Source: Arthrobacter sp. SLBN-122
GTDB lineage: Bacteria > Actinomycetota > Actinomycetes > Actinomycetales > Micrococcaceae
Length of the DNA stretch: 64,000 nt
Direction of reading: 5' to 3'
Assembly: GCF_006715165.1 (NCBI RefSeq)
Contig: NZ_VFMS01000001.1
Location: 3,038,001-3,102,000, forward strand
Positions 1 through 50,548 of the stretch are shown piece by piece. Both the position numbers and the translations under genes were made by a program. Positions within the stretch are counted from its first letter, which is position 1. The number at the start of each line of letters is the position of its first letter. The notes beneath the pieces are model-generated. The model did not search any database. It saw only the letters and a program-made list of their open reading frames with translations, and had not been told where the DNA came from.

Positions 1-2555
1 TCCACCTGGGCGCGGTCAGGCGCGTCTGCCGTGCGGGCGTCGTCGGCCGGCTGGGCTGCGGTGATCCGGCCCGCGAGCACCTCTTCAACAGTGAATTCGG
101 CGGCCGCCACAGCCTGTGTCCAAAGCAGCGCGGGCTCAACCGCCCGGGGCAGGGGCGTTCCGAAGTGCGGATGGGCCGACGCGAAAGCGCCCTGTTTCAG
201 CAGATAGAACGCCGTCGGGTCATCGGGCGGGGTGTCCCCGGAATGGAGGGCCCACTGGTAGAGCGCTAGCTGGAGCGCGGTGCCCTGCTGGATTTCCTCG
301 CGGCGGTACTTCGCGTTGTTGGTCCATTTGAGGTCGACGACGACGGTGCGGCCTTCCGCGTCGATGCCCACGGCGTCTGCGCTGCCCTTCACGTGGACCT
401 TGAATACCTCGCCGTCGGCGGACAGACGTACGTCTTTTCCGAATTCCCGCTCGACGTCCTGGAGCGTTATGCCGCCCCTTGAGAGCTGTCTGAAGAAAGT
501 TCCGATCGAGGCCACGAGGGTGGCGGTGACGGCGGAACGGCGGCGCAACTGGCCCGGCAGCAGCAGTTCCGAGGCGTAGTGGGGAATCAGTTCGTCGACG
601 GTCAGCCGGATCTCTGTTTCGTCTGGAACTGCGCGATTCCCGGGGCGAAGGCGGTGGTGGAGGACCTCCACCACCTTGTGCGCGAAGCTCCCGAGCATTT
701 GGTTGTCCATGGGGATGCCGGCGGCGTCGGCAACGTGCAGCTGTGACTTCTTCTGCAGCACCCAGGCAAGGGAACAGCCGAGCAGCGTCGTTAGCTGGCT
801 GAAGGACAGCCGCTCCGGTCGTAGCGAGGGATTCGGGCCAACTTCGTGGACAGGCGGGGGCGGAACGGGCAGGTTCCGGTCCACGGGAACCAGTTGGGCG
901 CTCCGCCCGGCGAACCGCCAGCGGCCGTCGGGGCCGGTGAGCTCGGCCGGCGTCGCGCTCAGTAGGGCGATGCGCTCGGACAATGACTTCGCAGTTCCCT
1001 CTTCCGGGCGCGGGGGCTGGGCGGCGGCCAGTGCCTCCAGGAGCGGATTGCTTTCGCTCCGCTCGCCATTGATCTGCTGGGCCTGGATGATGACCAGGTT
1101 TCGGCACCGGCCGGCGGCTGCGAGCGTCTGCCCGGCCGAAAGCGCCGCAAGGCCTTCCGGTGACGGCAGGTGGACACCCACCCTGGCAAGGGTCTCGACA
1201 TCGTGCGCGTCCCAGCGCCGCCCCGGAGCCGTGGATCCACTGCGGAAGCCCCACCACAGCACGTTCTCGACGTTTCCACCGAGTTCGTGCAGATGGTTGA
1301 GCCGGAGCCAAGGACTGGCTTCCGCGGCGACTAAGGGGCTGGACGTTGGCGTCACCACGGCGGAGATGATGCGCCGCAGCTCACGGCGGGAAACCGACGG
1401 GAGGGGCGCGACGAGCTCCAGAATCCGCTGCAGTTGGGTGGACGTGGCCTGGAAAACGGGGTCGACGGCGGCGCGGGCCCGCAGCCGGCCGGCGAACCAC
1501 ACCGCGCTCCCCGCCAGGTCGGCTCCGCTGGCGCTGTCCCCGCTGATCAGGCCGGCGTTGAACGTACGGTCGAGGATGGCGGCCAGATCATGACCTAGCT
1601 GTTCGTCGTCGGCGATCTTCCGAATGGCCTCCTTCCAGGCGGCGCCGCCTGTGCCGGGTGCCTGTTGGAGAGCCTGCAGGAGGTGGTGCGCTGCCCGTCG
1701 CTTGACCGGGCTGCCGGGGAGCGACAGGAACTCAGCCAGGAGCCGTACGTCGGCCGGGGCCCAGATGAGCTCGAAGAAGAGGGGAATTAGCTGGTCCTGT
1801 ACCCGCCACGGGGAGCGGGCGCCCACACCCAGGCGGGGCAGTCCATGCCCGGCAAGGTACTGGTCAAGGACGGAGGTGCTGTCCGAGCACACCACAGCTG
1901 TTCTGGCGTTGTATCCGTTGGAAAGCCAGCGGGCTGCCTGCTCGGCGGCCTCCCACTCTGTTTCGGCTGTGAGAATTGTCAGGCGCGGCTGGACAGTTGC
2001 CTGAGTCGCATCGCTGACTTGGACGCCGTGCCCGCGAAGTCTGGCGATAATGCGTTGCCAGATTGCGGGGAAGGATGTCTCGGGGTGCTGGAGGATCAGC
2101 TGGTCGATCCCGAGCGGCAGGGGAGTGTCGAGGGCGTCAAGCAGTTCCAGGGTGTCGTCCGCAAGCGAGGGGGCCAAATATCCTGCGGCATGTTCCGCGG
2201 CAGCAAGTGTGCGAAGCAACGGTGAAGGACCCGTGACGTCGGGACCGTTTTCGGGCAGCGTGCCGTCCCAGCCGTTGCTGACGGCGTCGTCCCGGCCGTC
2301 GAGGAGCTCCCGGGCGGTGGACCATGGATCCACTTGGAGCGAGGCATGGAACCATTCGGCCGGTGTGTCTATGGACTGCAGTCGCTGGAGGTACTGGCCG
2401 ATGCGCTCGGCGTGCGGGGTTTCGGGGCGGGTAATGCCCAGCCGTGTCTGCAGCAGGGTGGTGAATCCCTTGCGGCCTACCCGCACGCGGTTCAAGCCAG
2501 GTTCGGTGTAAGCCCACGGGGCTCGGTCCAGAAGCCATCCGAACTCAACGATCAT
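1..2555 (-). CDS. AddB-like PD-(D/E)XK nuclease/inactive-helicase protein (3' end off window)
   Basis: One frame stays open from an ATG at 2555 to the left edge, about 851 codons, so the C-terminus is missing. The N-terminal 550 or so residues look like the helicase-like scaffold of AddB/RecB-type proteins, with no clear Walker A. Around residue 590 there is a nuclease-entry segment containing GCSLAWVLQKK, where AddB and Cas4-type proteins carry their first conserved Cys. Near residue 725-735 the core DAVGIDAEGRTVVVDLKW fits the D...(D/E)xK motif of PDDEXK_1 nucleases, followed by a QLALY helix. It is the last visible gene of a five-gene operon, 72 bp after the two-TM protein. The expected role is DNA-end processing together with the two helicases encoded upstream. 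Family assignment is firm; the defence role is inferred. Confidence 0.8.
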   Translation of the reverse strand, partial: MIVEFGWLLDRAPWAYTEPGLNRVRVGRKGFTTLLQTRLGITRPETPHAERIGQYLQRLQSIDTPAEWFHASLQVDPWSTARELLDGRDDAVSNGWDGTLPENGPDVTGPSPLLRTLAAAEHAAGYLAPSLADDTLELLDALDTPLPLGIDQLILQHPETSFPAIWQRIIARLRGHGVQVSDATQATVQPRLTILTAETEWEAAEQAARWLSNGYNARTAVVCSDSTSVLDQYLAGHGLPRLGVGARSPWRVQDQLIPLFFELIWAPADVRLLAEFLSLPGSPVKRRAAHHLLQALQQAPGTGGAAWKEAIRKIADDEQLGHDLAAILDRTFNAGLISGDSASGADLAGSAVWFAGRLRARAAVDPVFQATSTQLQRILELVAPLPSVSRRELRRIISAVVTPTSSPLVAAEASPWLRLNHLHELGGNVENVLWWGFRSGSTAPGRRWDAHDVETLARVGVHLPSPEGLAALSAGQTLAAAGRCRNLVIIQAQQINGERSESNPLLEALAAAQPPRPEEGTAKSLSERIALLSATPAELTGPDGRWRFAGRSAQLVPVDRNLPVPPPPVHEVGPNPSLRPERLSFSQLTTLLGCSLAWVLQKKSQLHVADAAGIPMDNQMLGSFAHKVVEVLHHRLRPGNRAVPDETEIRLTVDELIPHYASELLLPGQLRRRSAVTATLVASIGTFFRQLSRGGITLQDVEREFGKDVRLSADGEVFKVHVKGSADAVGIDAEGRTVVVDLKWTNNAKYRREEIQQGTALQLALYQWALHSGDTPPDDPTAFYLLKQGAFASAHPHFGTPLPRAVEPALLWTQAVAAAEFTVEEVLAGRITAAQPADDARTADAPDRAQV

Positions 2556-2627: not shown

Positions 2628-3224
2628 CTACCGTGCCCTATTCTGCGCGCTGCTGTCCCCACCAGATTCTGTGGCTGCGGCAAGCAAGCGGTCAAAGCTC
2701 GTTATTCCGTAGTCGGGAGGGGTGGCGGTGATGGCGATGCGCGTCGTCCAGACAACGTTGTCCACGCGCTTGATGACGGCATTCCGCTCCTGCGCAGGCG
2801 ATTGCTCCCTGATCGACACAAGCTCTAGCCCGGGAACACCATTGACGAGGAGGGGAAGGGGTTTGCCGGTTTCGATCAGCGACCTGAACTGCTTCGCCGA
2901 CAACTGGTCGGCAATATTTCCTGTCAGCCCCGCGATTATGTCGTTGACCGTGCCTGTCAGTCCCTCCAGGAACCTGCGCTCGGCGGAGGCCTTACCTTTG
3001 ATTGCCAGTGCGGTGAAGACAAGGGCGAATACCCCGGTAAAGAGAGTGAAAGCCCCGCCGCTCCTGAGCCCGGGAATGAAAATCATCAGGACCAGGCACA
3101 GCACTGCGCCGATGACAGCGCATCCGACGAACATGTTTCCGGCGTCCTTTGCCGGCTTGCCGCTCCACTGTTCGGACGTAAAAGCTCTGAGGACGCGCGA
3201 CTCCGGCTGGAATTTTGGCATCAT
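2628..3224 (-). CDS. Two-TM membrane protein in the helicase-sigma operon
   Basis: This 198-aa protein of no recognised family starts at an ATG that overlaps the stop of the preceding gene (ATGA), so translation is probably coupled. Two hydrophobic segments at about residues 30-75 predict a membrane hairpin near the N-terminus. After them come a helical stretch (EGLTGTVNDIIAGLTG) and a soluble C-terminal domain of about 90 residues. A similar T-x-NDI-x-LTG stretch occurs in the separate membrane protein at 8229-8804, suggesting distant kinship. As the only membrane component among helicases and nucleases, it could anchor the complex or act as an effector. Function is unknown. Confidence 0.7.
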   Translation of the reverse strand: MMPKFQPESRVLRAFTSEQWSGKPAKDAGNMFVGCAVIGAVLCLVLMIFIPGLRSGGAFTLFTGVFALVFTALAIKGKASAERRFLEGLTGTVNDIIAGLTGNIADQLSAKQFRSLIETGKPLPLLVNGVPGLELVSIREQSPAQERNAVIKRVDNVVWTTRIAITATPPDYGITSFDRLLAAATESGGDSSAQNRAR

Positions 3225-3811
3225 TTCTCCCGTTTCGCTTCGAGCAGGGCCTCGGCCAGGATGATGGCGTGCCGTGCGTCCTGGAGATCGCTGCGCAGGC
3301 CCGGGTCCGGATTGACCACTCCAGGCACGTCCGCCGTTCCGCTGAGTTCGCCGATCGCCCGGCTCAGGTTCTCGCGCTCCTGCGAGAGCATCCGGGATGA
3401 CGTCAGCTTGGTCCTGCTCTTCTCCAGCGCCTGGAGGGCGCTGTTGATTTCGTCCCAGCGCGCCCGGACGGCGGCTAATCGAACATCGACCCGCTGCACC
3501 CGGTTTCTAAACAGGGGCTCCATCTTGAGCGCAACCGCATGGAGCTCAACCAGGGCAGTTCTCCGTGTGGACTTTCCAGCGGTACCTGCCTGCAGCTCCT
3601 CGCACACGTGAAGCCGCTGCTCCCAGAGCTGAAGACCTGTGGTGTTCTGCCTCATCAGCCGAGCCAAGATTTCAACAATTTCGTTCAGGGTGTTGCGCCG
3701 GGCCTTGAGTTTGGCACTGGCGGCATCAAGACGGCCAATGAATTCCTCGTAGTTGTCCACCGGCGCCGCACTTTTGGTCGGCCACGGCAGTTTTCGTGGC
3801 TCCGCCATCAT
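3221..3811 (-). CDS. Helical hypothetical protein in the helicase-sigma operon
   Basis: This 196-aa, Arg/Leu/Ala-rich protein is predicted almost entirely alpha-helical with coiled-coil character, for example residues 25-60 and 105-150. It has no signal peptide, membrane segment or recognisable catalytic motif. Its ATG overlaps the stop codon of the helicase-sigma gene by 4 bp, and its own stop overlaps the next start by 4 bp, so it is tightly coupled within the operon. A scaffold or adaptor role between the helicase-sigma protein and the membrane protein is possible but purely inferred from position. Confidence 0.7.
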   Translation of the reverse strand: MMAEPRKLPWPTKSAAPVDNYEEFIGRLDAASAKLKARRNTLNEIVEILARLMRQNTTGLQLWEQRLHVCEELQAGTAGKSTRRTALVELHAVALKMEPLFRNRVQRVDVRLAAVRARWDEINSALQALEKSRTKLTSSRMLSQERENLSRAIGELSGTADVPGVVNPDPGLRSDLQDARHAIILAEALLEAKREK

Positions 3812-6357
3812 GCTGCACCTGCCTCGGTGCTTGTGGATCCGTCGACGGCGTCATAGTTGTATTCGCGTAGGGACTGGCATCGTTCTGGTTCTCTGAGCAG
3901 CGCCATGGTCTTCGACTCGATCTGGCGGATGCGCTCGCGGGTTACGCCGTAGGCCCTGCCGATGGCATCGAGGGTCTTCTCCTCGCCGTCGTCAATCCCA
4001 AAGCGCATAGCGATGACGCCAGCCTCCCGCTCGGTCAGCGTATCCAAGACCGCATGCACTTGGGCCTTCAGCTGTTGCTGGGCGATCTGGTCAAGAACAT
4101 CCACGTGGCAGGGATCGAGGAGTTGGTCGGACAGCGGCTCCAGGCCGCTCTTACCGTCCGAAACGAGATAGTCCAGCGAAAGCACGGGCTTGTCGAGGAG
4201 CAGAAGATGCACCACCTTTTCGGCCGACTGATCCGTGTGTTTGCCGAGCTCGGCAACGGTGTACTCAACGCCCCTGCGGAACGCGTCGCTTTGAACAGAC
4301 TTCACTTTATTGATCTGCTCCACCATATGGACCGGGAGCCGGATGACCCGGGCTTTGTCGGCCAATGCCCGAGTGACGGCCTGCCGGATCCACCACGTTG
4401 CGTACGTGGAGAACTTGTTGCCAAGGGTGTAGTCGAACTTGCAGACTGCCCGGTGGAGGCCGATGTTCCCTTCCTGGATCAGATCAAGCAGGTCCATGCC
4501 GTGGAACACGTACTTCTTGGCGATGGATATGACCAGACGGAGATTCGCCTCCAGCAGGGCGTCGGAGGCACGCTCACCCAGCAAAGCAATGGCGCGCAGC
4601 TCCCGGGATTCCTTGCGGCCCCGGGGAGTGCCATCGGCCAGCAGGTGCGCGGCGTAAAGCCCCGCCTCGATGTCCTTGGCGAGCTCCACCTCCTGTTCGG
4701 CTGTCAACAGGGCAGCGCGGCCGGCACGCTGCAGGTAGTCCGAGACTCCGTCGTCGCTAAACCCCTTGAGCCCCTGAAGTTCCTCCAGCCAGCCAGTATC
4801 CCCAAGATCGAATGACGTCGGCGTGCCCTCGTCGTCCTCCACTGGAGGTTGCACCATCACCGGTTCTGGCGTTCCGGGTCTGCCGACTTCTGGTCCAACG
4901 CCGTTTCCGGGCGTGCCCGCCGCCGTCGGCTCACCGGGCTCGGGCGCCGAAGGCTCCTCAAGTTCGGCCTGGCGGAGGAACTCCTGTAGCCCGTCCAGGT
5001 CGGACTTGATGTCGAAGAATTCAACGTTCCGTGCGAAAGGCAGCACCTTGCCGAGGAATTCCTCGCCCTGGACGTCCGGGTCTTCCACGGTGCGCTTGGA
5101 ATAGAGGACAACCAAGCGGCCGGGCCCCCCGTCCGCCTTCTTGCGGATGACGCGGCCAAGCCGCTGCACCATCTGCCGCTGGCTGCGGTTGGCGGCAACG
5201 ATGATCCCGAGGTCGGCCTCGGGCACGTCAATGCCTTCGTCGAGGAGCCGCGGCGCGGCCAGAATCTGCGATGTGCCGGTACGGAAGTCTTCCATGCCCT
5301 GCCGTCGGTCGTCCTTGGTCATGCCACTGAACACTGCCGAGGCCTTCGAGCCCAGAGCCGTGTACAGCTCCTGCGCCCGGCGTGCGGACTCCTGGGTTTG
5401 GGTAAAGACCAGCGTTCCGCGGGATTGGTCGACAGTCTCCTTCAGGGCTGCCAGCGCCAGGTATTTCGTCTTGGCCGCAGCCAGAAGGGTGAGACGCGAG
5501 GACATGGCACGCATATACTTCCGCGCAATGGTTGCTTCGCGGCTGGACGAATCAGAGGCCGCGAGAGCAGCCACAGCGGCAATGAACTGCGGAAACGGCC
5601 GCCGCGGGATGCCGGCGTAGGACTCAAGATTCCGTGCCGCCTCCACCATCACAGCAGAGAACTCGTCGTAGGCCGCCTGCTCCGAGGACACCAGGTCAAC
5701 GCCAACCAACGCGATGTCGAAGGGCGCAATAACCTGGTCTTTCAGTGCCCGGTCGTACCAGAGGTTGTAGATGACGCCACCGAAGTAGGGCGTCAGAAGG
5801 TTCTCATGTTCACCGTCGGCCCGCTCGAAGGTAGCAGTCAGCCCAAGGCGCCAGGCGTACCCTTCCTGCAGGGCACCGGCGAACATTGGTGCCGCGTAGC
5901 GATGGCACTCGTCAGCAATAATCAGGCCGGCCTTGTGCGAACGCAGCGTTTCCCGGTTGGACGCCGAATGAACGATGGCCACGAGGATGTCGACGTCGTC
6001 AAGGGAATCGGAGCGCCCATCGCCAAGGGCACCACGCCGCGCAGCCGGAAGGTCGCGGCGCAGGGACACCAGCCACTGGCGCTGCAGCTCGGCTGTGGGA
6101 ACCAGGATCAGGACCTTGATGCCCTGCCGGACTGCCTCGAAAGCCGCTGCAATCCCCACGCGTGTCTTACCTGAACCGGTGACGGCTTCCACAACGCCGC
6201 GGCGGGCGTTCGAGTGCCATGCCTTCAGGGCTTCCTGCTGCCAGGGATAGAGGAAGGCGTAGTCGTAGGCGGCTGGCACCGTCGGGGGCGCAGCCGGGAC
6301 GGGCACCTGCGGAAGCGTCGCAATCGGGTGTGGCCCGGCGTCGGCTAATTCTGGCAT
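3808..6357 (-). CDS. SF2 DEXH helicase fused to a sigma-70 factor
   Basis: This is an 849-aa two-part protein. Residues 45-440 form an SF2 helicase: Walker [11 protein letters not shown] near 58, Walker B ADECH near 149, TATFE near 175, [12 protein letters not shown] near 374 and [10 protein letters not shown] near 402. A Pro/Gly/Glu-rich linker covers about 460-530. Residues 535-849 are a sigma factor with region 1.2 ([16 protein letters not shown]), region 2 ([38 protein letters not shown]), region 3, and region 4 ([16 protein letters not shown] with [10 protein letters not shown]). Region 2 is close to primary sigma factors, so RNA polymerase binding is plausible. The start is set at the ATG at 6357, preceded by GGGGGA; an in-frame TTG at 6417 would add 20 residues. 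It is the second gene of the operon. I know of no characterised protein with this fusion. Domain calls are firm; function is open. Confidence 0.88.
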
Positions 6358-6435
6358 TTCATCCCCCATTGGACGGTTCTGATCTGGTGCCTGAAGAGTA
6401 TGCGGAGGCGCTGACAATTTAGGTGAGCGCCGCCA

Positions 6436-8121
6436 CTACTCGCCGGACAGCACCGGTCTCCACGCCTGCGTATGCGACAGCGCGAGCTTAAGTTCGCGGC
6501 CGCCTGCCTCCTCCAGCAGCCCGGAATCACCTACAACCACCAGCAGGCTCCGGGCCCGCGACAATCCGACATATAGCTGTTCCCGGGCCCTGCCCATGTC
6601 CTTGAATCCGTTGACGCAAAGGACAACAACGGACCGTTCCAAGCCCTTGAAGCCCAGCACATGGCCGTAGAACTCGCCGTCGTTGGCGTGGAAGTCCCGC
6701 CAGTACTCTTCCGTGGCGCCGCGCTTGAAGTAGTCCAGGTGGATCGGGTGGCGGTCCTTGGTGGTGAGGAGCGCGATCTGGTTGTTGGCCCAGCCTTCCT
6801 CGATCAGCGCGTCCACGCAGTCTCCGGCGACCTCGAGCGCGTCCTCGGTCGGGCAGTCCACGAACCGTACTGGCAGGCCGGTGCTGCCCCGGGGCGTGAA
6901 ATATTCGCCGGCGAAGGGCTTGAACGTGTCGGCGATCTTGCGGGTGTTGCGGAGGTTGTCGTCAATGTGGATGGGCACGAACGTGGCCATCGGCCCATTG
7001 GTAAGGTCCGCCGTCGCGCCTCCCCAGCGCTGGTAGACGTCCTGCCGGTCATCCATGAAGGCGTACACCTCGCCAGCGGAGGGGTCTGTGGTGCAGGCGA
7101 GCAGCGCGTCCCACCAGAGCGGCGCAAAGTCCTGCGCTTCATCAACAATCACAGCGTCCAGGCGTTCCTGCGGTCCCATCTCAGCGGCGAGTTCCTTCAG
7201 GAGGCGGGGCATCTCCACGTCGAAGTAGTCCTGCCCCTGCCCGTCGGGAACGCCAATCCCGCGCACGTACTCGTGGAACTCGCCCGTGAACACCGGCTTC
7301 GCTTGGCGCCACGTCGCCACCCTGTCCTGAAGGTATTGCCCCAAGCCTTTGTTGTAGCAGAAGAGGCCGACGCGTTTGCCCTGTTTGCTGAGCATGCGGG
7401 CCTTTTCGACGGCGAGCCACGTCTTTCCGCTGCCGGCGCCGCCGGTGAAGCGGATCCGGGGGAGTGACCGGGTCGCCTGGAGCAGCACGGACTGGCGCTC
7501 GGTGAGGTGGTCCTGTGCTGCTTCGTCCTCCTGCGAGGTGGTTGAAGGCACGACGGCGGTGTCCAGGTTTCCGCCCAGCTTGCGGACGATGCGTTCCAGG
7601 AAGGCCGGCGCCAGTGGGGAGGCTCCGCCGCCTTCGTTTTCGATGGCCTGGCGGACGAGGTCGGCGGGGGATTTGCTGTCGGTCTGGTCGAGAATGAGCG
7701 ACCGCGGGCAACCTGCCATGGTCCAGTCCCGCGGCACGCCGGTGTAGGGGAGGCTGACCATGTAGACGCAGCGGCTGCTCAGGCGCGTACCGAGCTGGTT
7801 CTCCAGCCAGTTCTTGAGAGCGTGGAGTGCGCTCTGGGATTGCGCCACGGGGCTTTGGATCTTGCGTCTCTGGGTGCGGTCCGACTGGTACCACTGCCCG
7901 TCCGTGATGCTGACCTGGCCGCCCTTGACCTCGATCGCAGCCATGCCAACGTTGGGCCAGAGGACCAGCAGGTCAATTTCATATTCGTTCCGGCCGTCGC
8001 GGACGTGGACCGAGTGGGCCAGGACGCAGTCGTCGGGGAGGCTGCTCCGCAGGGCAGTCCAGACGGCCTTCTCCGCGTGGTGTCCCTCACCGAACTCCGG
8101 TTCTTCCGGAATGCACCTCAT
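6436..8121 (-). CDS. NERD-domain UvrD-like SF1 helicase
   Basis: This protein of about 561 aa begins with a NERD nuclease-related domain. YEIDLLVLWPN and AIEVKGGQV near residues 50-67 give the D...ExK core of the PD-(D/E)XK fold. An SF1A helicase follows: Walker A FTGGAGSGKTW near 229, DEAQDFAPLWW near 327, a DDNLRNTRKI helix, and GLSRARSLLVVVGD near 520. NERD-UvrD proteins are common in defence islands. The start is placed at the second ATG (8121), because the first (8133) lacks a ribosome site while GGGGG precedes the second. It is the first gene of the minus-strand operon running to the left edge, 78 bp before the preferred start of the helicase-sigma gene. It probably unwinds and cleaves DNA. 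Confidence 0.85.
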   Translation of the reverse strand: MRCIPEEPEFGEGHHAEKAVWTALRSSLPDDCVLAHSVHVRDGRNEYEIDLLVLWPNVGMAAIEVKGGQVSITDGQWYQSDRTQRRKIQSPVAQSQSALHALKNWLENQLGTRLSSRCVYMVSLPYTGVPRDWTMAGCPRSLILDQTDSKSPADLVRQAIENEGGGASPLAPAFLERIVRKLGGNLDTAVVPSTTSQEDEAAQDHLTERQSVLLQATRSLPRIRFTGGAGSGKTWLAVEKARMLSKQGKRVGLFCYNKGLGQYLQDRVATWRQAKPVFTGEFHEYVRGIGVPDGQGQDYFDVEMPRLLKELAAEMGPQERLDAVIVDEAQDFAPLWWDALLACTTDPSAGEVYAFMDDRQDVYQRWGGATADLTNGPMATFVPIHIDDNLRNTRKIADTFKPFAGEYFTPRGSTGLPVRFVDCPTEDALEVAGDCVDALIEEGWANNQIALLTTKDRHPIHLDYFKRGATEEYWRDFHANDGEFYGHVLGFKGLERSVVVLCVNGFKDMGRAREQLYVGLSRARSLLVVVGDSGLLEEAGGRELKLALSHTQAWRPVLSGE

Positions 8122-8140
8122 TGCTGCCCCCATATTAACG

Positions 8141-10272: not shown

Positions 10273-11604
10273 ATGGATGACCGCCCCATAATGCTCGGGA
10301 CGCTGCCTGACGGCCGTCGTCTCCACCTCGGTGATGCGGCTGGCCAATGGCCAGCAGGCGGAGGTGTTCTGCTGATCCGTGGTCAAGCTCCAGCCACGGC
10401 GGGGAGAACATATTTCGACGAGATCATCAGCCAGTCTTGCCGCACGAGTGCGACACACGTCATCGACCTCGTTGAAGGTGACTACAGCTGGATGTTGGAA
10501 GGCATGAGGACACTTTCCAGATCCATGGGGGAAGCCTGTATGAAGGTCGGCGAGATCTTTGGGGGAATGCATGAGGATAGGCGCGGTACAACGGTCATCG
10601 TCAACGGCGCTGAGTCACTCCAAGCAGATGCCCATTCATACTCATCCCTACTTGCCGAGAAGCTCAACCATCTGATCGCTTCCCCGCCTCAAGGAGGTGC
10701 TTCCTTGGTGCTGGCCGGTCGCGACTTGGATGTCTCCATGCTTCTGGTGGAAGGCTTGAACGGTGCCCACCGGATCCAGTTCAGCGGCTGCGGTCAGACG
10801 AATTCCACCCAGTATCTGCTCGGCGATCTGCAGCACGCTGTCATTCCTGGGTCCACGGCCATCTATGAAGGGCCCTTCGGGTCTCCGTCGACGTTCTTCA
10901 GCCCTCTTGTAGGCTCCGGCGGCAGGTCCACGGAGGATGCGTTTTTGGAGCTGCCAATCGGTATTGAAGGGGCCAGCTTCTCGACAGCTTGGGCACAAAA
11001 CCTAGTGGTACGCGGCGGATCACGTTCCGACAGGTCGCAATTGATTGCAGCGATGGCCAAGGCTGCGCAGGAGTCTTGTGTGTTGACCTGGGTCGCCGCG
11101 TCAGCCCCGGATTCCGCTCCCAGCGCCAATTGGCGACACCATCGGGAGACTATGTCCACGGGAGTCGTGCAGGGGCGAGAACTCCTGCGGCTCGTTTGCG
11201 ATCAAGTTTTCCCGCGCATGGATGCGTGCCGAGAACTAGGCACTAAAGACGTCAGGGACTTACGGATCCCTGCGGACCTGGCACGCCCCATCGCCATCTT
11301 CGTTGACGATCTTGATGTCCTTACAAAAGAAACTGCAGACCAGCCTGAAGTTGAGGAATCAGCTAAGGCCGTGGAAACCCTGATCGGGTTTCTTGCCCAG
11401 ACGGCCAGTCAAACTAATGTCTCGCTGATTGTAGGCACTGCAGCCGATTTACAGTCGCAATCAGCTGACGTTGGCTTGCTGTGGACCAGTGCAGCCCAGT
11501 TACAGCTGGCCCCGTACGGTTCCGCTCCAGGCTCGGATGAAGCACCCCTGTACTTTGCTGCACCAGGACTTCCGGCTATCACGCTCGAGGTAACAAGGGT
11601 GTAG
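10273..11604 (+). CDS. Degenerate FtsK/EccC-like tandem P-loop protein
   Basis: This 443-aa protein appears to contain two degraded FtsK/EccC-type ATPase units. The first has LLIRGQAPATAGRT where Walker A is expected and TTVIVNGAESL in the Walker B position. The second has LELPIGIEG leading into LVVRGGSRSDRSQL, then PIAIFVDDLDVL near residue 345 and a following helix with TNVSLIVGTAADL, echoing the FtsK 'ATQRP' strand. Neither P-loop keeps the GxxxxGK(S/T) lysine, so ATP binding is doubtful. A GGAGA site lies 8 nt before the ATG. It stands alone, divergent from the small basic protein and convergent with 11644-13206. The FtsK link is an inference from spacing and motif order. Confidence 0.55.
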   Translation: MDDRPIMLGTLPDGRRLHLGDAAGQWPAGGGVLLIRGQAPATAGRTYFDEIISQSCRTSATHVIDLVEGDYSWMLEGMRTLSRSMGEACMKVGEIFGGMHEDRRGTTVIVNGAESLQADAHSYSSLLAEKLNHLIASPPQGGASLVLAGRDLDVSMLLVEGLNGAHRIQFSGCGQTNSTQYLLGDLQHAVIPGSTAIYEGPFGSPSTFFSPLVGSGGRSTEDAFLELPIGIEGASFSTAWAQNLVVRGGSRSDRSQLIAAMAKAAQESCVLTWVAASAPDSAPSANWRHHRETMSTGVVQGRELLRLVCDQVFPRMDACRELGTKDVRDLRIPADLARPIAIFVDDLDVLTKETADQPEVEESAKAVETLIGFLAQTASQTNVSLIVGTAADLQSQSADVGLLWTSAAQLQLAPYGSAPGSDEAPLYFAAPGLPAITLEVTRV

Positions 11605-11643: not shown

Positions 11644-13206
11644 CTAGGCCGCATTCCGGAGTGACTGGACTTCGCCTTCCAAAGCCCGTTCTATTGTGAC
11701 GCCTCCATCCGGCCCCGGTCCCGATGGAAACTCGCCAGTGCTCCAGCGGAGTTTATTTGCGTCTTGGCAGCGCCGTCCGTGCCTTAGACCACGTACGATC
11801 GCATGTCCCGCCTCGCCCGCTGGGACCCGCTCCTTGCGCCAGTTTGGAACCTCTTCGTCCGGTGCTGACCAGCGGCTTTTCTCCAGGTAGCGCCTATCGA
11901 TGGGCCACTCAGCCGCCGGCAGGTATTGCTCAGACACAATTTCACACCACACACCGTCGGCGCTCGGCGTCGCCTGCGCATAGGGCCGAGTCGTGATCTC
12001 CTCATTGCCGTCGTATTCGACGCGGAGAAAGCTGTTCCACGGCATCTTTGCCAAGAGTTGACCGATGAGTTCGCCTGCTTGGTGCCATTCCTCCGTCTCA
12101 CGTTGGAATTTCGCCTCATTGATGGCCAGGCTTTCATCCTCAAATCCAAATGGAAAGCCCCAGTAGAACTCGTGGGTGTCCGGCTCTTCGTCGACTTCTT
12201 CCTCTTGCGGGAGAATGACTTCGATGGCGGCTTCCCAGCTACCGTAGCGACGGATGAGCTCTACGGCTGAAGGATGTTCTTCTCTCACCGCGGCGGCCGC
12301 GATGATCCACTGGTCGTAAAACTCTACGTCCATGGGATTCCCGAATTGCATGCATTCCTCGGTGGAACGGTCGAGGACGTCCAAGTAGTCCAGCTCAGTG
12401 AAGCGGTGGTCACTGGACAGAAGTCGCATACCTACCGAGTTCAGCAAACTTTCCCAGGACCCGTGACCGTAGCGTGCGCGCAAGGTTCGTCCCGGAACGG
12501 GCCAGGGGTCATCCGGGTCGTTCGTAATCGAACCAAGGCGCCTCGATACTGCCCGCGTAGCGCTCTCGTAGTCCTCGTGAGAAATGGTCGTGATTGTTCT
12601 AGCTCGGATAGCAAGAGCTGTCGTTTCGATTACGGCTAGAATCTCGGCCATGCGCCGATACGGCAAGCGCTGATTCAACAGGCCCCGGAGCTCTGATACT
12701 GCGGGCAGTGATATCTTTCCCAGTGCCAATTGATAATCTGGTTTGACTTGATGGTGCACTCCTGCCACATACAGCAGGCTTAGCTTGTCAACCAGCCGGC
12801 GTGAAGGAAGTTCGTCAACTGATTGACCACCAGGAATACCAGGAATGTGAAGAAGCTCCGCGGCGATTTGAACATCAATTGAGGTACCCAGCGCAGTCAA
12901 AACTTTGGGTATCTCGTCGCGGTCAATCCCCGAGGCAAAAAGCCGCTCGACCATTTCCTCATTGCCTAACAAGGCCTCGTTGGTGGCCAGGCAGCGCCGA
13001 CGAACCGCACGTGAGCGCTCCAACTCGTCATTCGTGTCAGCCTGGGTCAGGGCCAGAAGGGACACTTCTTCAGTGCTGCACCCCTTCGCCTTCGCGATAA
13101 AGCGGAGCGGATCACCCCGGCGATAGGGTTCGCGCACGTCAACTGACGCTAGATCTTGGCTGTGCACGTCCTCATGCTGTTCCAGCAAGTCTTCCCCCAT
13201 CTCCAA
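11644..13206 (-). CDS. Hypothetical protein with homing-repeat-like motifs and a TY-Chap-like C-terminus
   Basis: This 520-aa protein lies 4 bp after the sigma-region-4-like gene, so the two are surely co-translated. Residues 25-230 are helical and unassigned. Near 240-340 two short repeats (YGHGSWESLLNSVGM and RYGSWEAAIEVI) match the '(F/Y)GSWxxAL' signature of homing-endonuclease-associated repeats (PF18780-like), also present in its neighbour. The C-terminal 140 residues, with SFLRVEYDG, CEIVSEQYL and SRWSAPDEEVPNW, recall the TY-Chap/YbjN-like peptide-binding fold of actinobacteria. That last link is tentative. No nuclease motif is visible. It is the last gene of the operon that begins with ARPP-1. 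Confidence 0.6.
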   Translation of the reverse strand: MEMGEDLLEQHEDVHSQDLASVDVREPYRRGDPLRFIAKAKGCSTEEVSLLALTQADTNDELERSRAVRRRCLATNEALLGNEEMVERLFASGIDRDEIPKVLTALGTSIDVQIAAELLHIPGIPGGQSVDELPSRRLVDKLSLLYVAGVHHQVKPDYQLALGKISLPAVSELRGLLNQRLPYRRMAEILAVIETTALAIRARTITTISHEDYESATRAVSRRLGSITNDPDDPWPVPGRTLRARYGHGSWESLLNSVGMRLLSSDHRFTELDYLDVLDRSTEECMQFGNPMDVEFYDQWIIAAAAVREEHPSAVELIRRYGSWEAAIEVILPQEEEVDEEPDTHEFYWGFPFGFEDESLAINEAKFQRETEEWHQAGELIGQLLAKMPWNSFLRVEYDGNEEITTRPYAQATPSADGVWCEIVSEQYLPAAEWPIDRRYLEKSRWSAPDEEVPNWRKERVPAGEAGHAIVRGLRHGRRCQDANKLRWSTGEFPSGPGPDGGVTIERALEGEVQSLRNAA

Positions 13207-13210
13207 GTGC

Positions 13211-14242
13211 CTATTCCTGTACCGAACGCACGGCGTTCGACCACGAGCCGTAGATTCCTCGTACCGCGGCTATGGATGGTCTTTCTCGGCCCTCAGCGCG
13301 CTCTGCCCTTGCCCACGCGTCATATCCCGCGTTCGTCGCCTTCGTATTGGCTGCCCGTGCAGCCGAGCAATAGTTTCGAACAGCATTGTCATAATCTTCG
13401 CGCGTGAATTTGACCAGACCCTTCGGCCGGCCCTGTCTTGTGGTTCCAATTCCCATGGCTTCAAGCGCGTCATTCCAGCTTCCGAAGCGCTTCATCAAGG
13501 TCTGGCCCGTTGGTGGCCAAGCGTTCGAACCTTTGCGAGAGACCAAGCCCAGGCCGGGAATCAGCTCCCCACGAAGCCGGTGATAGCGCTGCGCCGTGAT
13601 GCTGGCAGACGGGTTCTCTTCGACGTGCTTCTGCGCCGCTCCGATGACCCCGAGGATGGTGGCCACATCATCTGGTGTCACTTCTGCTGCTTCAAGCGCG
13701 CCACGGAGCTCGGACATCAGGGACAGTTCAAGATGTACAGCCGCCCACTCCCTATCCGGGGGGAGGCCCAAATCAGAACCCAGCAAGTACCAGATGCCGG
13801 CAGCTACCGCTTCCTTAGAGAAGATATCGTCCGTTTGGCTGGAGTCAAAGACGATATCGGAGGACCTGAGTGCGTCTTCAGCGAGTTCTATATTGATGCC
13901 CGGATAGAGACTTTCAAGCCTGTTGATAGCGTCTACACGGGTGCACCCACGGCGTGCCATATGCCGGGCGAGTTCTTCATAACTAAAGAGGAAGGCTCTG
14001 TAACTGTCCTGAACGAGAGCTTCTCGATCGGCGGCCCTTTTCTTGCGGGATTCCTCGGCGTTCGTCCCACCCACTTTGGCGATGATCTGCCGGACCCGCT
14101 CACGGGTAATGCCGAAGCTCTGGCCGATAGCGTCCAGCGTCTCACCATCGGCGTAGCGCTCAACCATCGCAGCATCGCGCTGCTCCCGGCTGAGTTCAGG
14201 AGTTGTTGTCATGGTCATATTCCTATCAGCAGCCTCGGACAT
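13211..14242 (-). CDS. Sigma-region-4-like HTH protein with homing-endonuclease-associated repeats
   Basis: This is a 343-aa protein. Residues 17-60 carry a helix-turn-helix very like sigma-70 region 4.2: YADGETLDAIGQSFGITRERVRQI. The middle (60-230) is helical. The C-terminal part has two '(F/Y)GSW' repeats, RFGSWNDALEAMG near 255 and YGSWSNAVRSV at the end, typical of the homing-endonuclease-associated repeat that binds DNA. No region 2 is present, so it is not a complete sigma factor; DNA-binding regulator or adaptor is likelier. The ATG directly abuts the stop of the ADP-ribosylglycohydrolase gene. Alternative starts at residues 9 and 11 are better spaced from AGGA. Confidence 0.72.
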   Translation of the reverse strand: MSEAADRNMTMTTTPELSREQRDAAMVERYADGETLDAIGQSFGITRERVRQIIAKVGGTNAEESRKKRAADREALVQDSYRAFLFSYEELARHMARRGCTRVDAINRLESLYPGINIELAEDALRSSDIVFDSSQTDDIFSKEAVAAGIWYLLGSDLGLPPDREWAAVHLELSLMSELRGALEAAEVTPDDVATILGVIGAAQKHVEENPSASITAQRYHRLRGELIPGLGLVSRKGSNAWPPTGQTLMKRFGSWNDALEAMGIGTTRQGRPKGLVKFTREDYDNAVRNYCSAARAANTKATNAGYDAWARAERAEGRERPSIAAVRGIYGSWSNAVRSVQE

Positions 14243-15772
14243 TTATTGGGCACCTGCGCGCGTGGCACCACCGGCCACCGGATTGGTGGTGGTTTCGGCT
14301 TCTGCCAGCATCCTGGCGAAGAGAGGATTTGGCCGTGCGTTAGGCAGTGCCCGCCGCACATCCTCCAGAGCCACTAGCGGAGAAATGCCGGCAACGCGGG
14401 CACCATACAAAGCAGCGACAGTCGGCGTCCGGGATTCCGCCCGGACACAGTGCAGCAGCACAGTCTTGCCTTCCGAGCGGTAATGTTCGACGGCGGCCGC
14501 CGCTTCCCCGAGGACAAAGGAGGCATGCGCGTTGTCGCCTTCAACAGCGGAGTCGACCACCCAGAAGCTGGCATGGTCCTCGGGCTCCACGCCCGGCACG
14601 TCCAGCGTCCCCAGCCGGCAAAGCGACACCACCGCATCAATCCCCAACTCAGCCACCCGCTCAAGTGAGCGAACCCCGCCCAGCCACACGCCGTCGTCGT
14701 GCGGGTGCCGGACCAGCGCGTCTGTGCGGCCCCACATGCTGTAGTCGTGTCGTTCAGCCCGCGGCCAGGACGCTGCCCGCCTGCCCTCGCCGCGGCCCAG
14801 CTCCATGCCCAGCACCATCAAGTCACGGGCGCGCAGCCCCGGCCAGCCATGAAGGCGCTGCCGCCACTCGAAAGGCACCGCGGTGTAGCCGTACGCCGAA
14901 CCCAGCAGGCCGCCGGCGATGGCGGCCACAGTATCGGTATCGCGTCCACCCCGCACCGCCTCCTCCAAAGCAGCCCGAAGGTGGGCGGGGCCAACAGTTG
15001 AACGGCCCGCGTAATGGATGGCACTCCAAGCGCCCTGGAAGGCCTCCACCACCCAGCCGTTGCGGGTAAAGTCGCGGGGCCGGCACCGCTCGGCCGTTTC
15101 AATCCGCTCAAGCCAAACCGAAGCCCGCTCCTCGGACAGCAGCGGCAGACCCACCCGGACATCGAGCCGCCCGGTAAGAACCGCGTGGCGGACGGCAACG
15201 CACCACAACCCGCACGCCTCCTGGGCATCAGGGTCGGCGTGAGTCAGGGCGCTCACCACCCCGGCGGCAGCCACCAGTTCGGAAGGCTCCCGCTCCAGGT
15301 AGGCGAGGGCCAGCGGGGCGGTGCGCATCAGCGACCCGTTGCCGGCGCTGCGGCCGGTCCGGGCATGGAAGTCCGCGGCCGCGGCAGTGAAGTCGGCGGC
15401 TGTGACCTTCCGCCCGGCAGCAGCAGCCAGCCGACGGGCGGCAGCGATGACGGAGCTCGTCTGTGCCCCGACGTCCTTCGCTTCCGCCGCCCAAGATGTC
15501 CAGGCCCGGACCACCATGGTGAGAGCTGCAGGGGAGGAGGGGGTGGCGCCGGACGCGGACTCCAGCAGCGCCTCGGCGATGGGGATGGCCATGGAGGTGT
15601 CGTCCGTCCACTCGGCCGGCGCGAACCCGAACGGTCCGCCGCCCTTCATGGTCACTTCGGCGCCGTCCGGCAGCGGGGCGCCGAACTCGTAGCCGGCGCC
15701 GAGGGCGTCGCCGGCGGCCAGGGCGACCAGGACGCCGGCGGCACGGTCATTCTGCAGGGGGTTCAGTTTCAT
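14243..15772 (-). CDS. ADP-ribosylglycohydrolase fused to a dual-specificity-phosphatase-like domain
   Basis: This 509-aa fusion has an ADP-ribosylglycohydrolase at residues 1-340: GDALGAGYEFG near 20, the metal-ligand motif WTDDTSM near 55, GNGSLMRTAPLAL, and GGRDTDTVAAIAGGLLGSA near 275. These hold the binuclear Mg ligands of the ARH family. Residues 350-480 are phosphatase-like, with HCVRAESRTPT giving the CX5R catalytic loop near 442. It should hydrolyse ADP-ribose conjugates and a phosphate in succession. ARG-phosphatase fusions next to ARPP proteins are a known comparative-genomics theme in NAD-derived metabolism. Its start overlaps the stop of the ARPP-1 gene by 4 bp. Substrate is unknown. 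Confidence 0.88.
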   Translation of the reverse strand: MKLNPLQNDRAAGVLVALAAGDALGAGYEFGAPLPDGAEVTMKGGGPFGFAPAEWTDDTSMAIPIAEALLESASGATPSSPAALTMVVRAWTSWAAEAKDVGAQTSSVIAAARRLAAAAGRKVTAADFTAAAADFHARTGRSAGNGSLMRTAPLALAYLEREPSELVAAAGVVSALTHADPDAQEACGLWCVAVRHAVLTGRLDVRVGLPLLSEERASVWLERIETAERCRPRDFTRNGWVVEAFQGAWSAIHYAGRSTVGPAHLRAALEEAVRGGRDTDTVAAIAGGLLGSAYGYTAVPFEWRQRLHGWPGLRARDLMVLGMELGRGEGRRAASWPRAERHDYSMWGRTDALVRHPHDDGVWLGGVRSLERVAELGIDAVVSLCRLGTLDVPGVEPEDHASFWVVDSAVEGDNAHASFVLGEAAAAVEHYRSEGKTVLLHCVRAESRTPTVAALYGARVAGISPLVALEDVRRALPNARPNPLFARMLAEAETTTNPVAGGATRAGAQ

Positions 15773-16731
15773 GCCATCTCCATCAGGGGGTGTTGGGTGT
15801 TCCAGCCGGTGAGGTGCGCCAGTTGCGGGCGGCGCTGGGGGAGCGCGACGGCGATGCCAGCGGCGGTGACAGGCCCTGCGGTGCGGGAGACGTTGCGGCT
15901 GCGGAGGGAGCCATGGTCCCGGACCTCCAAAGCTGCCGGGCCGTCGTCGAACGTTCCGAAGTCCACGGCCTGCACGTGGGCGGCAAAGTCGCGGGCCCGC
16001 TGGCCGGGCATCGGACCCAACGCCAGCGCCTGGGGCGGCAGGAGTTCCAGATCCAGCAGCGCCGCCTCGATCAGCTGCCGGTAGTGGCGGCGGAACAGCG
16101 TGCTGGTGCCGAAGACCTCCAGGAGCAGCGGCTGGTTCCCGAGCCCAATCACCACGCCGCGCTGGCCCTCGAGAGGTTGCGGAGCCTCCGCGGGGTCGAA
16201 GCGGTTCCGTTCCTCCTTGTCGTCCTTGAACCAGTCCAGGTGCTGAAGCAGCGAGCTGGTGGCGGAGGCACCCCGGACGTTGTCGAAGCGGTTGACGCGC
16301 TCCCAGATGCGGCCCTGCCGGTTGCTTCCGCGCCCGCTGCCGGTGCCGGTCAGCTCGGCCCGGACGTTAAGCGGGGCACGGCGTGCCTGGCGTCGGTGGC
16401 TGCTCTGCCCTTCTTCCCAGCGGCCGGCCTCGACGCAGAAGGTGTCGATGTCACGTGTCTCTCCCGGGCCAAGGACGACGTCGCGGGCGCAAGTCCGGTG
16501 CTGCTGGCCGCCTTCGAGCAGCTCACCCTCGAGCAGCAGTGCCGGGTTTGGGCCCTTGTTTGTGACGGTGAGGCGGGATACCTGGGCGCCGCTGGCCAGT
16601 TCGGTGACAGCGACGTTGGCGTGGGTGCCGGTGCTGATGCCGAGGCTTCCGGGATCGGGCGTCCAGACGGGGAAGATGCTGAGCGGGCCGAGGTGGGTGC
16701 CGGCGCCGACGTGAAGCTGGGGAACTTTCAT
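15769..16731 (-). CDS. ARPP-1 domain protein (partner of the ADP-ribosylglycohydrolase)
   Basis: This 320-aa protein matches the ARPP-1 family (ARG and Rhodanese-Phosphatase-associated protein). It has VTNKGPNPALLLEGELLEGG, an HRT segment and VEAGRWEEGQ, corresponding to the family's 'GExLxGgkQNR ... CVExGRW' core. Biochemical activity of the family is unknown; genomic association links it to ADP-ribosylglycohydrolases and phosphatases, as here. It is the first gene of the minus-strand operon. Its ATG lies 17 bp from the nearer of two palindromic operators in the intergenic region shared with the Nudix-type regulator. That arrangement suggests control by an NAD-derived ligand. Confidence 0.85.
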   Translation of the reverse strand: MKVPQLHVGAGTHLGPLSIFPVWTPDPGSLGISTGTHANVAVTELASGAQVSRLTVTNKGPNPALLLEGELLEGGQQHRTCARDVVLGPGETRDIDTFCVEAGRWEEGQSSHRRQARRAPLNVRAELTGTGSGRGSNRQGRIWERVNRFDNVRGASATSSLLQHLDWFKDDKEERNRFDPAEAPQPLEGQRGVVIGLGNQPLLLEVFGTSTLFRRHYRQLIEAALLDLELLPPQALALGPMPGQRARDFAAHVQAVDFGTFDDGPAALEVRDHGSLRSRNVSRTAGPVTAAGIAVALPQRRPQLAHLTGWNTQHPLMEMA

Positions 16732-48926: not shown

Positions 48927-49075
48927 GTAATGCTGATCGACCGGTTTGGCTCAAACTTGCTGCTGTATCACCCGGTTAGCTGGCAGCAACGGGGGCGGTG
49001 ATGGCGCTCACCGTTGACGACTTCGGGCTTATCGGGCAAGGAATCATTGTCAGTGCCATTGGCTAGTGTGAACCC

Positions 49076-50548
49076 ATGACTGTTCTCCGCGCCGCACTCA
49101 CGGCTTCTCGCTTGTTGAGCGAGGATCCAGCGTGGCGTCTGCTCCGGACAAATAACGCAGCGATTGCAGTAGCTGTGCTGAGCAAGCATCTGGGCGGCGA
49201 GCAACGTCGGTTGGCGGCGCCGGCGCTTTTTGAGCACGTTGAGGAGGATCTGGAGGAGCTGCGGGGCAACGGGTTCGATCTGCCACAGACGGCTCAGGCC
49301 TATTGCACAGCGTGGCGCAATGACGGCGTCCTGATCCGTCGCACTGCAGAGGGATCCCGCGAGGAGACCTTTGAATTGTCGCTGGGAGCGCTGCAGGCCA
49401 TTCGCTTTGTCGCGGAGCTGTCCCAGCCGCGGCAGGCCGTCACCGAATCGCGTCTTGCCACAATCCTGGACAGGGTGCGCGTACTGGCCCGCGAAACAGA
49501 TCCGGACAGTACGTCACGGCTGCGCGCACTGCATGAGGAACGCGCCCGCATCGATGGCCAGATTGAGCGGGTCGCCGGCGGGGACATTGACGTGCTGTCC
49601 GCCGAGCAGGCCGCTGAACGGCTGCGCGACGTACTATCGCTCATCGAAGAAATACCCAGTGATTTTGCCCGGGTCCGGTCCGAGCTTGAGCAACTCAACA
49701 GGGACCTGCGGGAACGGCTGATCGAACAGGATGGCCCGCGCGGCAGCGTCCTGGATGACATCTTCCGCGGTGTTGATCTCTTGGCCGAGTCCGAGGCTGG
49801 ACGGAGCTTTTCCGGCTTCTATGCTCTACTGCTCGACCCGGAACAGGGACGTGATTTCGAGGACAGCATCGACACCATCATGGACAGGCAATTCACGTCC
49901 CGGCTCTCCGCAACGCAGGTGAGGACTCTGCGCCGGATTCTGCCCACGCTCCAGGACCATAGCTCCGAAATCCATGCCGTCATGACTGCGTTCAGCCGCA
50001 GCCTGCGCCGCTTTGTCCAGTCCCAGGAACTCGAACAGGACCGGTTGATCAACCAGCGGCTGCGTTCTGCATTGCGGCAAGCTTTAGAGACCTCGCAGTC
50101 GGTGAAACCTTATGCCAAGACAGAATTGTCGCTGGACCTGACCAGTGTTCCGCTCAATTCAGTGGCCGCTCTCAATCTGCATAATCCGGCCGACTTCGAA
50201 GCCGCTGGAGAGATCATCGAGCATGACGCCGAGACAGTGGACATTGAGGAACTCCGGGCTCTGGCCCGCGCCTCCGAGATCGACATGATCGAATTGACTG
50301 GCAATATAAATGCCGTCCTGAGCCGGCAAAGCTCTGCAACCATTGCCGACGTTTTGGCTGATCGTCCGGCCACCCAAGGTGTGGCAAGCGTCGTCGGACT
50401 CCTAGTTCTAGCCGAAGAGCACGCCATCGCGCTGGGCGGCCGTGAAGACGTCACCTGGCGGCCCCCCGGACGCTCCACCGATGGCTCCGGCACCACGCGC
50501 CGCGGGACTGTGGGCCGCTATCTCTTCACCGAAAGGATTCACCCGTGA
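49076..50548 (+). CDS. jetA: Wadjet JetA (DUF3375, kleisin-like)
   Basis: This 490-aa protein has the DUF3375 pattern: winged-helix start with SEDPAWRLLRTNNAAIAVAV and YCTAWRNDGVLIRR, a long helical middle, and a C-terminal winged helix ending at RGTVGRYLFTERIH. In type I Wadjet JetA is the kleisin (MukF-like) linker of the SMC complex. The jetB GTG overlaps its stop by 4 bp. It is the first gene of the complete jetABCD operon, which restricts circular plasmids by loop extrusion and cleavage. Confidence 0.93.
   Translation: MTVLRAALTASRLLSEDPAWRLLRTNNAAIAVAVLSKHLGGEQRRLAAPALFEHVEEDLEELRGNGFDLPQTAQAYCTAWRNDGVLIRRTAEGSREETFELSLGALQAIRFVAELSQPRQAVTESRLATILDRVRVLARETDPDSTSRLRALHEERARIDGQIERVAGGDIDVLSAEQAAERLRDVLSLIEEIPSDFARVRSELEQLNRDLRERLIEQDGPRGSVLDDIFRGVDLLAESEAGRSFSGFYALLLDPEQGRDFEDSIDTIMDRQFTSRLSATQVRTLRRILPTLQDHSSEIHAVMTAFSRSLRRFVQSQELEQDRLINQRLRSALRQALETSQSVKPYAKTELSLDLTSVPLNSVAALNLHNPADFEAAGEIIEHDAETVDIEELRALARASEIDMIELTGNINAVLSRQSSATIADVLADRPATQGVASVVGLLVLAEEHAIALGGREDVTWRPPGRSTDGSGTTRRGTVGRYLFTERIHP

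Follow-up and report, generated by a model that had tools for sequence, protein, structure and literature searches.

A helicase-sigma-70 fusion gene preceded by a putative DNA-damage promoter in a defence island of Arthrobacter sp. SLBN-122

The Helicase-Sigma Fusion Gene

A gene of Arthrobacter sp. SLBN-122 that joins a helicase to a sigma-70 factor is described here. It lies in a 64,000-nucleotide (nt) stretch of contig NZ_VFMS01000001.1 (positions 3,038,001 to 3,102,000; hereafter the window, whose first letter is position 1). On the minus strand of the window an intact frame of 849 codons runs from an ATG at 6357 to a stop at 3808, the plus strand being interrupted by stops. The 849-amino-acid (aa) product of this gene (3808..6357, minus strand, like its parts) has three parts: (i) an XPB-like superfamily 2 (SF2) helicase part, residues 28-465 (4963..6276); (ii) a Pro/Gly/acid-rich linker of 66 residues, 466-531 (4765..4962), predicted to be disordered (predicted local distance difference test, pLDDT, <50); and (iii) a primary-type sigma-70 part covering regions 1.2 to 4.2, residues 532-834 (3856..4764). 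A Shine-Dalgarno-like GGGGGA (6362..6367, minus strand) stands before the ATG, and GGGGGA or GGGGA is common to the fused genes and their helicase-less relatives. An alternative TTG start at 6417 would give 869 aa, yet it falls within the promoter motif described below.

Pfam finds ResIII at residues 36-179 (3e-23) and Helicase_C at 305-406 (8e-19), followed by sigma region 1.2 at 537-569, region 2 at 601-670 (2e-20) and region 4 at 770-823 (9e-16), all of these matches being above cut-off; region 3 is weak (680-735, 0.0022, under cut-off), and no region 1.1 was found in the sigma part. The order of helicase then sigma within one 849-aa frame, as claimed in the preliminary description made from the letters alone, is thus borne out by Pfam and by the alignments to sequences of solved structures given below. 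An AlphaFold2 model (mean pLDDT 72.1, predicted template modelling score 0.40) is good in the second helicase lobe and across most of the sigma part; each of the 50 Foldseek matches listed for it is either a sigma chain or a complex containing sigma, SigA with PafBC (7p5x) among them.

The Helicase Half

Among sequences of solved structures, residues 28-409 align with archaeal XPBII (5e-36) and residues 25-417 with RAD25/XPB (1e-34). The motifs GSGKT, DECH and QRLGR can be read directly, and these SF2 motifs, together with similarity across the entire core, place this half in the XPB helicase family. A RED motif is a feature of that family. At its position R179 and D181 are invariant in all 79 rows of an alignment of fused proteins (790-1003 aa, the SLBN-122 protein included, taken from 120 listed homologues with near copies and short fragments omitted), and the middle residue here is alanine (R-A-D), compared with R-D-D in XPBII and R-E-D in RAD25. 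The XPB/RAD25 proteins, which comprise archaeal XPBII and the eukaryotic TFIIH translocase, resemble the fusion in the helicase core (residues 28-409); unlike the fusion, they have no sigma factor attached, and R-A-D replaces R-E-D in the fusion. The 60-80 residues that precede the core in archaeal XPB chains are unmatched in the fusion.

The best PADLOC match of the helicase is PbeA (2.4e-59), and TIGR04095 (dnd_restrict_1) matches at 5e-38, with 131 bits against a cut-off of 600 and confined to the helicase part. PbeA is linked to phosphorothioation, and both are phosphorothioation-linked restriction helicases.

The Sigma Half

For the sigma part, the alignment is with SigA/HrdB of Streptomyces and mycobacteria (2e-93). 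Elsewhere in the SLBN-122 genome a strong sigma match occurs only at SigA (3739122), about 55-56% identical over the aligned stretch. With Escherichia coli residue numbers and roles, which we take to apply here, Y430, W433, W434, R436, Q437, R584, E585 and R588 are kept in 79/79 fused proteins, the promoter-melting tryptophan pair among them; Q589 and F427 are kept in 78 and T440 in 70, and the core-binding residues of region 2.2 (D403, Q406, E407, N409) in 76-79. The Pfam regions 1.2, 2 and 4, together with the -10 melting and the -12/-35 recognition residues, make this a primary-type sigma-70 factor. The recognition residues are identical to those of 26 SigA-type rows, so a changed promoter specificity is not indicated. 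The good conservation of regions 2 and 4 noticed earlier holds both in Pfam and across the 79 fused proteins, and the kept core-binding residues support the plausibility of holoenzyme formation, which had also been proposed. SigA/HrdB and the group 2 sigma factors are like the fusion in regions 1.2-4 and in the -10 and -35 residues; in the fusion, the helicase occupies the place of region 1.1.

Two aligned fused proteins (P0097 and P0101) have a SigA-like sigma part, 75% and 73% identical to the SigA of SLBN-122. One of these, P0097, from a named isolate, also has a KOW-like C-terminal tail (residues 876-905, Pfam 0.0018, below cut-off). Another row, P0045, from a metagenome-assembled genome (MAG), was considered as a case of sigma swapping but is probably a chimera of assembly and was discounted as such, though it is retained in the counts of 79.

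Distribution and Selection

A search of 5.8 billion proteins returned at least 120 homologues. The fused ones, where named, come mainly from Arthrobacter, Pseudarthrobacter, Paenarthrobacter and relatives, and some are from named isolates. Within the genus, 31/198 genomes match at E<=1e-95, of which 23 carry a fused gene, in some cases broken or truncated at a contig end, and the other 8 only a stand-alone sigma. Across the family, 11/295 genomes match at E<=1e-100, one of them with a stand-alone sigma (G187). Across the class, the helicase part occurs in 8/394 genomes at E<=1e-30; besides SLBN-122 and G009 there are six such matches, and a sigma follows the helicase in two (L156 and L158), as a separate gene in L158. 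The fusion gene is accessory and patchy in the genus. Five Frankiales/Nocardioides loci (L013, L014, L016, L029, L030) taken up as candidate fusions proved to hold a sigma only. No virus-borne full copies were found: a scan of viral contigs gave 33 loci, all with the helicase part only, at 23-38% identity except for one short match at 51%.

Among 16 genus copies the median ratio of nonsynonymous to synonymous substitution rates (dN/dS) is 0.056 for the helicase (75/120 pairs usable) and 0.124 for the sigma (46/120), pairs being used where dS lay between 0.05 and 1.5. Both halves are under purifying selection and both are maintained. A one-off fusion, which the preliminary description had named as an outcome that would undo it, is excluded by the 79 aligned fused proteins and the 23/198 genus genomes, and chance or assembly error is unlikely as the origin of the frame. 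An assembly or annotation artefact could point to the chimeric look of one aligned row only, P0045, and is refuted by the same counts and by selection on both halves; its probability is negligible.

The HA domain marks a further group. Fused copies with a C-terminal HA domain occur on pACHL01 (L248, Pseudarthrobacter chlorophenolicus A6) and pYJN5-1 (L249), and the HA-bearing aligned proteins (precomputed Pfam) group outside the main genus clade under a midpoint root. On both of these Micrococcaceae megaplasmids the HA-bearing fusion lies a few genes from the plasmid dnaE, in a similar setting.

Relatives without a Helicase

Nine stand-alone sigmas form a single clade (support 100/99) that is nested among the fused proteins and groups with two of them (99/84). 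Their leader peptide resembles that of fused L127-L130 and joins directly onto the apparent end of the linker, as would be expected if the helicase had been deleted. The opposite order, insertion of a helicase into an older stand-alone sigma, was at first suggested by the leader, promoter and ribosome-binding site that both kinds of gene have in common, and was dropped because the tree places the stand-alone clade inside the fused proteins; helicase loss from a fused gene fits better. One further protein, P0211, looks like a second, more recent loss.

In a wider set of 110 helicase-less proteins (from 120 listed, some of them fragments; seven that have a helicase domain form a separate count, and P0236-P0238 are omitted), D403, Q406, F427, R436 and R584 are kept in 110/110, and E407, N409 and R588 in 107-109. 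The other residues are kept less often: Y430 is kept in 34, W433 in 66, W434 in 9, Q437 in 21 and Q589 in 67. Both tryptophans are present in only 8/110, and seven of these eight (P0210, P0211, P0214, P0217, P0225, P0233, P0235) resemble truncated fused genes or recent helicase losses. The melting residues thus always accompany the helicase and seldom occur in its absence, but this contrast probably lies for the most part on a single branch of the tree. The helicase-less sigmas at L134-L142 keep the core-binding residues and lack the promoter-melting tryptophan pair, and could possibly be damage-induced polymerase decoys. In L134, AddB-like and AddA-like genes follow the stand-alone sigma directly.

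Separate genes for the two halves had been named beforehand as counting against the fusion. This holds in part: they do occur adjacently in L205, and the helicase-less clade, nested inside the fused proteins, has a sigma alone. L205 (3886-11462) belongs to another family of the class and has three adjacent genes, for an SF1 helicase-REase_MTES_1575 protein, an XPB-like helicase with a sigma region-4-like tail (1.3e-6) and a separate full sigma. Two other loci, L206 (1165-8555) and L207 (3741-10522), show a comparable large gene with an XPB-like helicase after it; the helicase tail in L206 also reads as sigma region 4, and the large gene in L207 has SF1 helicase-REase domains.

A Putative DNA-Damage Promoter

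A motif of the RecA-NDp/PafBC type, TTGTCAGCG-N8-TACTCT, lies at 6395..6417 on the minus strand and ends 37 nt before the ATG of the fusion; it was recognised by upstream alignment and by the consensus, which is given as tTGTCRgtg - 8 nt - TannnT (PMC5656591). The SLBN-122 copy reads TTGTCAGCG-CCTCCGCA-TACTCT, with GCG where the consensus has the weakly conserved gtg. PafBC works through RecA-NDp (PMC6789036); single-stranded DNA (ssDNA) activates it, and it inserts between the promoter and domain 4 of SigA (PMC11804915). A fused PafBC ortholog is described for Arthrobacter aurescens (PMC8223512), and in SLBN-122 a frame of 690 aa contains two WYL domains, the layout expected of a fused PafBC, so that we infer it to be PafBC.

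Upstream of fused and stand-alone genes alike, TTGTC(A/G)-N11-TA(G/C)TCT aligns with small variations, the flanking genes being different, and where it is readable in the genus island copies the motif begins 60-61 nt upstream of the start codon. The strict motif is found in 15/19 genus island copies, 8/9 stand-alone sigmas and 0/8 fused copies outside the island, and the relaxed motif (first T free) in 18/19, 9/9 and 2/8, respectively. Random 130-nt windows from the same loci contain the strict form in 40/20,000 cases (0.2%) and the relaxed form in 80/20,000 (0.4%). The eight copies outside the island comprise six from other genera and two from Arthrobacter; in six of the eight the 130-nt window was placed at the beginning of the open frame, the start codon not being known, and a strict scan of these six whole loci gave no match except one stray in L149. 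For L124 and L125, with damaged start regions, up to 820 nt were searched instead of 130. The count omits L150, whose start lies beyond the contig end, and L133, a broken twentieth island copy with no strict and one relaxed match in 310 nt.

Across 825 kb of neighbourhoods (own locus excluded) the strict motif occurs 31 times: 14 times before fusions, 8 before stand-alone sigmas, once before the AddB-like gene of L119, 5 times in the form TTGTC-N10-GCTATGTT and 3 times as strays. The TTGTC-N10-GCTATGTT sites are located where an alternative AddB-like gene is called to begin (L116, L121, L122, L124; cut off in L131); that gene thus has a strict motif at its start in 5/9 loci and none in L114, L125, L127 and L130. 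In the SLBN-122 genome some motif matches precede genes that, by sequence reading, resemble DnaQ exonuclease, UmuD and a RecB-like nuclease. The fusion is apparently damage-induced, from a putative DNA-damage promoter, and the conservation of this motif lends support to the earlier suggestion of a link between sensed damage and transcription.

A second RecA-NDp-like motif, TTGTCAGTGCCATTGGCTAGTGT, is present in the window at 49047-49069 (plus strand), ending 6 nt before the called start of DUF3375 in a Wadjet-type operon (49076-55777) in which DUF3375, SbcC-like and JetD genes were found. This operon may likewise be DNA-damage-inducible.

The Operon and the Defence Island

The genes that follow the fusion in the window are on the same strand. 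The start of a gene for a 196-aa protein (3221..3811), a coiled coil by sequence reading, overlaps the fusion stop by 4 nt; it is present in 9/23 fused genus loci (all neighbour counts refer to these 23, own included), and Pfam gave no family above cut-off. A gene for a 198-aa protein with hydrophobic, membrane-like segments by sequence reading (2628..3224) overlaps it by another 4 nt. Then comes an AddB-like protein (by sequence reading) with a PD-(D/E)XK nuclease (1..2555), which runs off the window and reaches its full 880 aa with L151, and after it, outside the window, an AddA-like UvrD helicase with PDDEXK (1094 aa, L151:16683-19967). The last two genes of the operon thus resemble AddB and AddA of the AddAB/RecBCD systems, though the AddA-like gene scores 152.9 bits against TIGR02785 (addA), for which the cut-off is 707.65. 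Directly upstream of the fusion is a gene for a NERD nuclease domain with a UvrD-like helicase (6436..8133, minus strand).

Conserved neighbours had been sought as support for a system, and both the NERD helicase and the AddA-like gene occur near the fusion in 18/23 loci; the NERD helicase is directly upstream (78-125 nt) in 15/23, and 8 of the 18 AddA-like genes are a distant version, 24-38% identical. In one genome (G335) a stand-alone sigma stands in the fusion's place, and two (G352, G372) have island genes and the NERD helicase with no fusion within the stretch read.

Further island members on the minus strand are a 520-aa TY-Chap3 domain protein (11644..13206); a 343-aa protein with a sigma region-4-like helix-turn-helix and an HNH-/homing-endonuclease-associated repeat (13211..14242), found in several islands; an ADP-ribosylglycohydrolase with a dual-specificity phosphatase, the latter below cut-off (14243..15772); and an ARPP-1 domain protein paired with it (15769..16731). 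The last two were considered as a core chromosomal flank, which was rejected because only 13/101 genus genomes carry the ADP-ribosylglycohydrolase gene, 10 of the 13 with a fused copy, some broken. On the opposite strand, 10273-11604 encodes a protein of 443 aa whose AAA match is marginal; copies of it, 70-78% identical, occur in five other islands (L118, L119, L121, L124, L125). The window as a whole is a large defence island with a type IV restriction endonuclease, GmrSD, a DrmD-like gene, type III restriction-modification and Wadjet. No transfer RNA genes that could mark an integration site were found in the window or in L151.

Relation to Known Systems

The closest PADLOC model for the sigma half is MzaA (NCBIfam NF041931, PADLOC PDLC02203), the sigma-70 of an anti-phage system, which has a long N-terminal extension and whose sigma part matches that of the fusion; mzaA is called a sigma factor in PMC9523054. 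The fusion scores 297.8 bits against NF041931, in the sigma part only and below the MZA cut-off of 800. Only positions 466-714 of the 726 in the MzaA model match, and the N-terminal 465, compared by the model alone, are unmatched. No MzaA at cut-off was found in the 198 genomes, nor any MZA partner among the genes of the window and L151 scanned, a scan that covered part of the genes. No match spans both halves among the best 25 of 38 PADLOC and the best 25 of 83 NCBIfam matches, and no description of a helicase-sigma fusion or of a motor-bearing sigma was found among the papers listed by searches of open-licence literature. The preliminary statement that no characterised example is known therefore stands for the fusion within those listings; for anti-phage systems, MzaA already provides an example of a sigma factor.

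Mfd and HelD are polymerase-linked motors. Like the activity proposed for the fusion, they are ATP-driven motors acting with RNA polymerase; they dock through other domains, whereas the fusion would dock through its sigma factor.

A Proposed Mechanism and Its Alternatives

The fusion protein may be a DNA-damage-induced sigma factor through which a DNA translocase reaches RNA polymerase, a reading to which we give a probability of about one half. It is suggested by a complete motor and sigma in one protein, purifying selection, the kept residues, the conserved motif and the linked nucleases, and also by L205, where helicase and sigma are linked as adjacent separate genes beside an SF1 helicase-REase. 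Polymerase binding, motor action on promoter DNA, induction and purpose are all what we infer from these features. According to this proposal, ssDNA from damage or from foreign replication would activate PafBC, which would switch on the promoter at 6395-6417, and the operon would be expressed: the helicase-sigma protein, the two small proteins, and the AddB-like and AddA-like helicase-nucleases. The sigma part could then dock on the RNA polymerase core, recognise ordinary -10/-35 promoters and melt them. The XPB-like translocase, on a flexible linker N-terminal to region 1.2, would take the position occupied in SigA by region 1.1, close to the downstream DNA channel, and could pump DNA, either in promoter opening or in moving polymerase on damaged or foreign templates. 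Meanwhile the nucleases would process DNA ends.

Several observations weigh against this damage-induced sigma. The AlphaFold2 model is modest, with much of the first RecA lobe at pLDDT <50, and helicase chains are absent from the 50 Foldseek matches listed. The dN/dS of the sigma is about twice that of the helicase. One genus island copy (L126) has no motif match of any kind, and the eight fused copies outside the island yield the 0 strict and 2 relaxed matches given above. Genome-wide, a loose form of the motif shows no enrichment (16 matches, compared with 15 for the reversed pattern), so the weight of the promoter reading comes from position and conservation. The nine treed helicase-less sigmas are one clade, hence the loss of the tryptophan pair may be a single event, and W433 by itself persists in 66/110 helicase-less relatives. 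On both megaplasmids no AddAB-like or NERD gene is annotated in the 20 kb covered.

An anti-phage function of the fusion is plausible. In the version in which the protein is chiefly an anti-phage or anti-plasmid effector, the sigma would mainly aim the complex at transcribed foreign DNA; this would bring in the translocase, which in turn would bring the AddAB-like and NERD nucleases, and the foreign DNA would be unwound and degraded. The setting in a large defence island, the patchy spread (23/198 genus genomes), the nearest PADLOC models (PbeA for the helicase, MzaA for the sigma), the occurrence of a sigma factor in the MZA anti-phage system, and L205, where an SF1 helicase-REase gene accompanies the helicase and the sigma, all suit such an effector. 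Aiming alone, however, does not need the kept tryptophan pair and -12 residue, some fused copies are plasmid-borne near dnaE with the nucleases not in view, and PADLOC matches exist for only 3/10 window/L151 proteins, to parts of other systems; on balance we think this version rather unlikely, although it is the strongest of the competitors.

The plasmid-borne copies also bear on a different origin, in which the protein arose on large Micrococcaceae plasmids as an element's own sigma, serving transcription of the element, and joined the chromosomal islands later. The HA-bearing copies near dnaE on pACHL01 and pYJN5-1, and their grouping outside the main genus clade (midpoint root), fit this; yet the recognition residues equal those of SigA, with no evident change of promoter specificity, and the island copies have the damage promoter and sit with nucleases, which makes such an origin improbable. 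Still less probable is a polymerase-binding brake, in which the sigma part would sequester core after damage instead of starting transcription. The helicase-less relatives, which keep core-binding and mostly lose melting residues, would suit a decoy, but the fused proteins keep nearly all the melting and -35 residues examined, the opposite of what a decoy would show.

The damage-induced sigma has a more specific form that we advance only tentatively: a sigma that carries an XPB translocase of its own where region 1.1 would be could give ATP-driven, damage-inducible promoter opening, as a bacterial counterpart of the TFIIH idea. The persistence of the melting residues with the motor, and their decay in the motor-less clade, would then set such sigma factors apart as a motor-assisted class.

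Significance

In the usual view, a sigma-70 holoenzyme needs no ATP to open a promoter, unlike eukaryotic polymerase II, which uses TFIIH's XPB motor. A natural protein with an XPB-like motor and an intact primary-type sigma makes motor-driven initiation in bacteria, at least after DNA damage, directly testable, and the helicase-less clade, with core-binding kept and melting mostly lost, is a ready natural comparison. Through the fusion, accessory nucleases of a defence island would be tied to the damage response governed by PafBC, and the motif at the Wadjet operon would do likewise. The parts themselves, a sigma-70 and an XPB helicase, are of known kinds; motor-driven promoter opening in bacteria, if true, would be a new kind.

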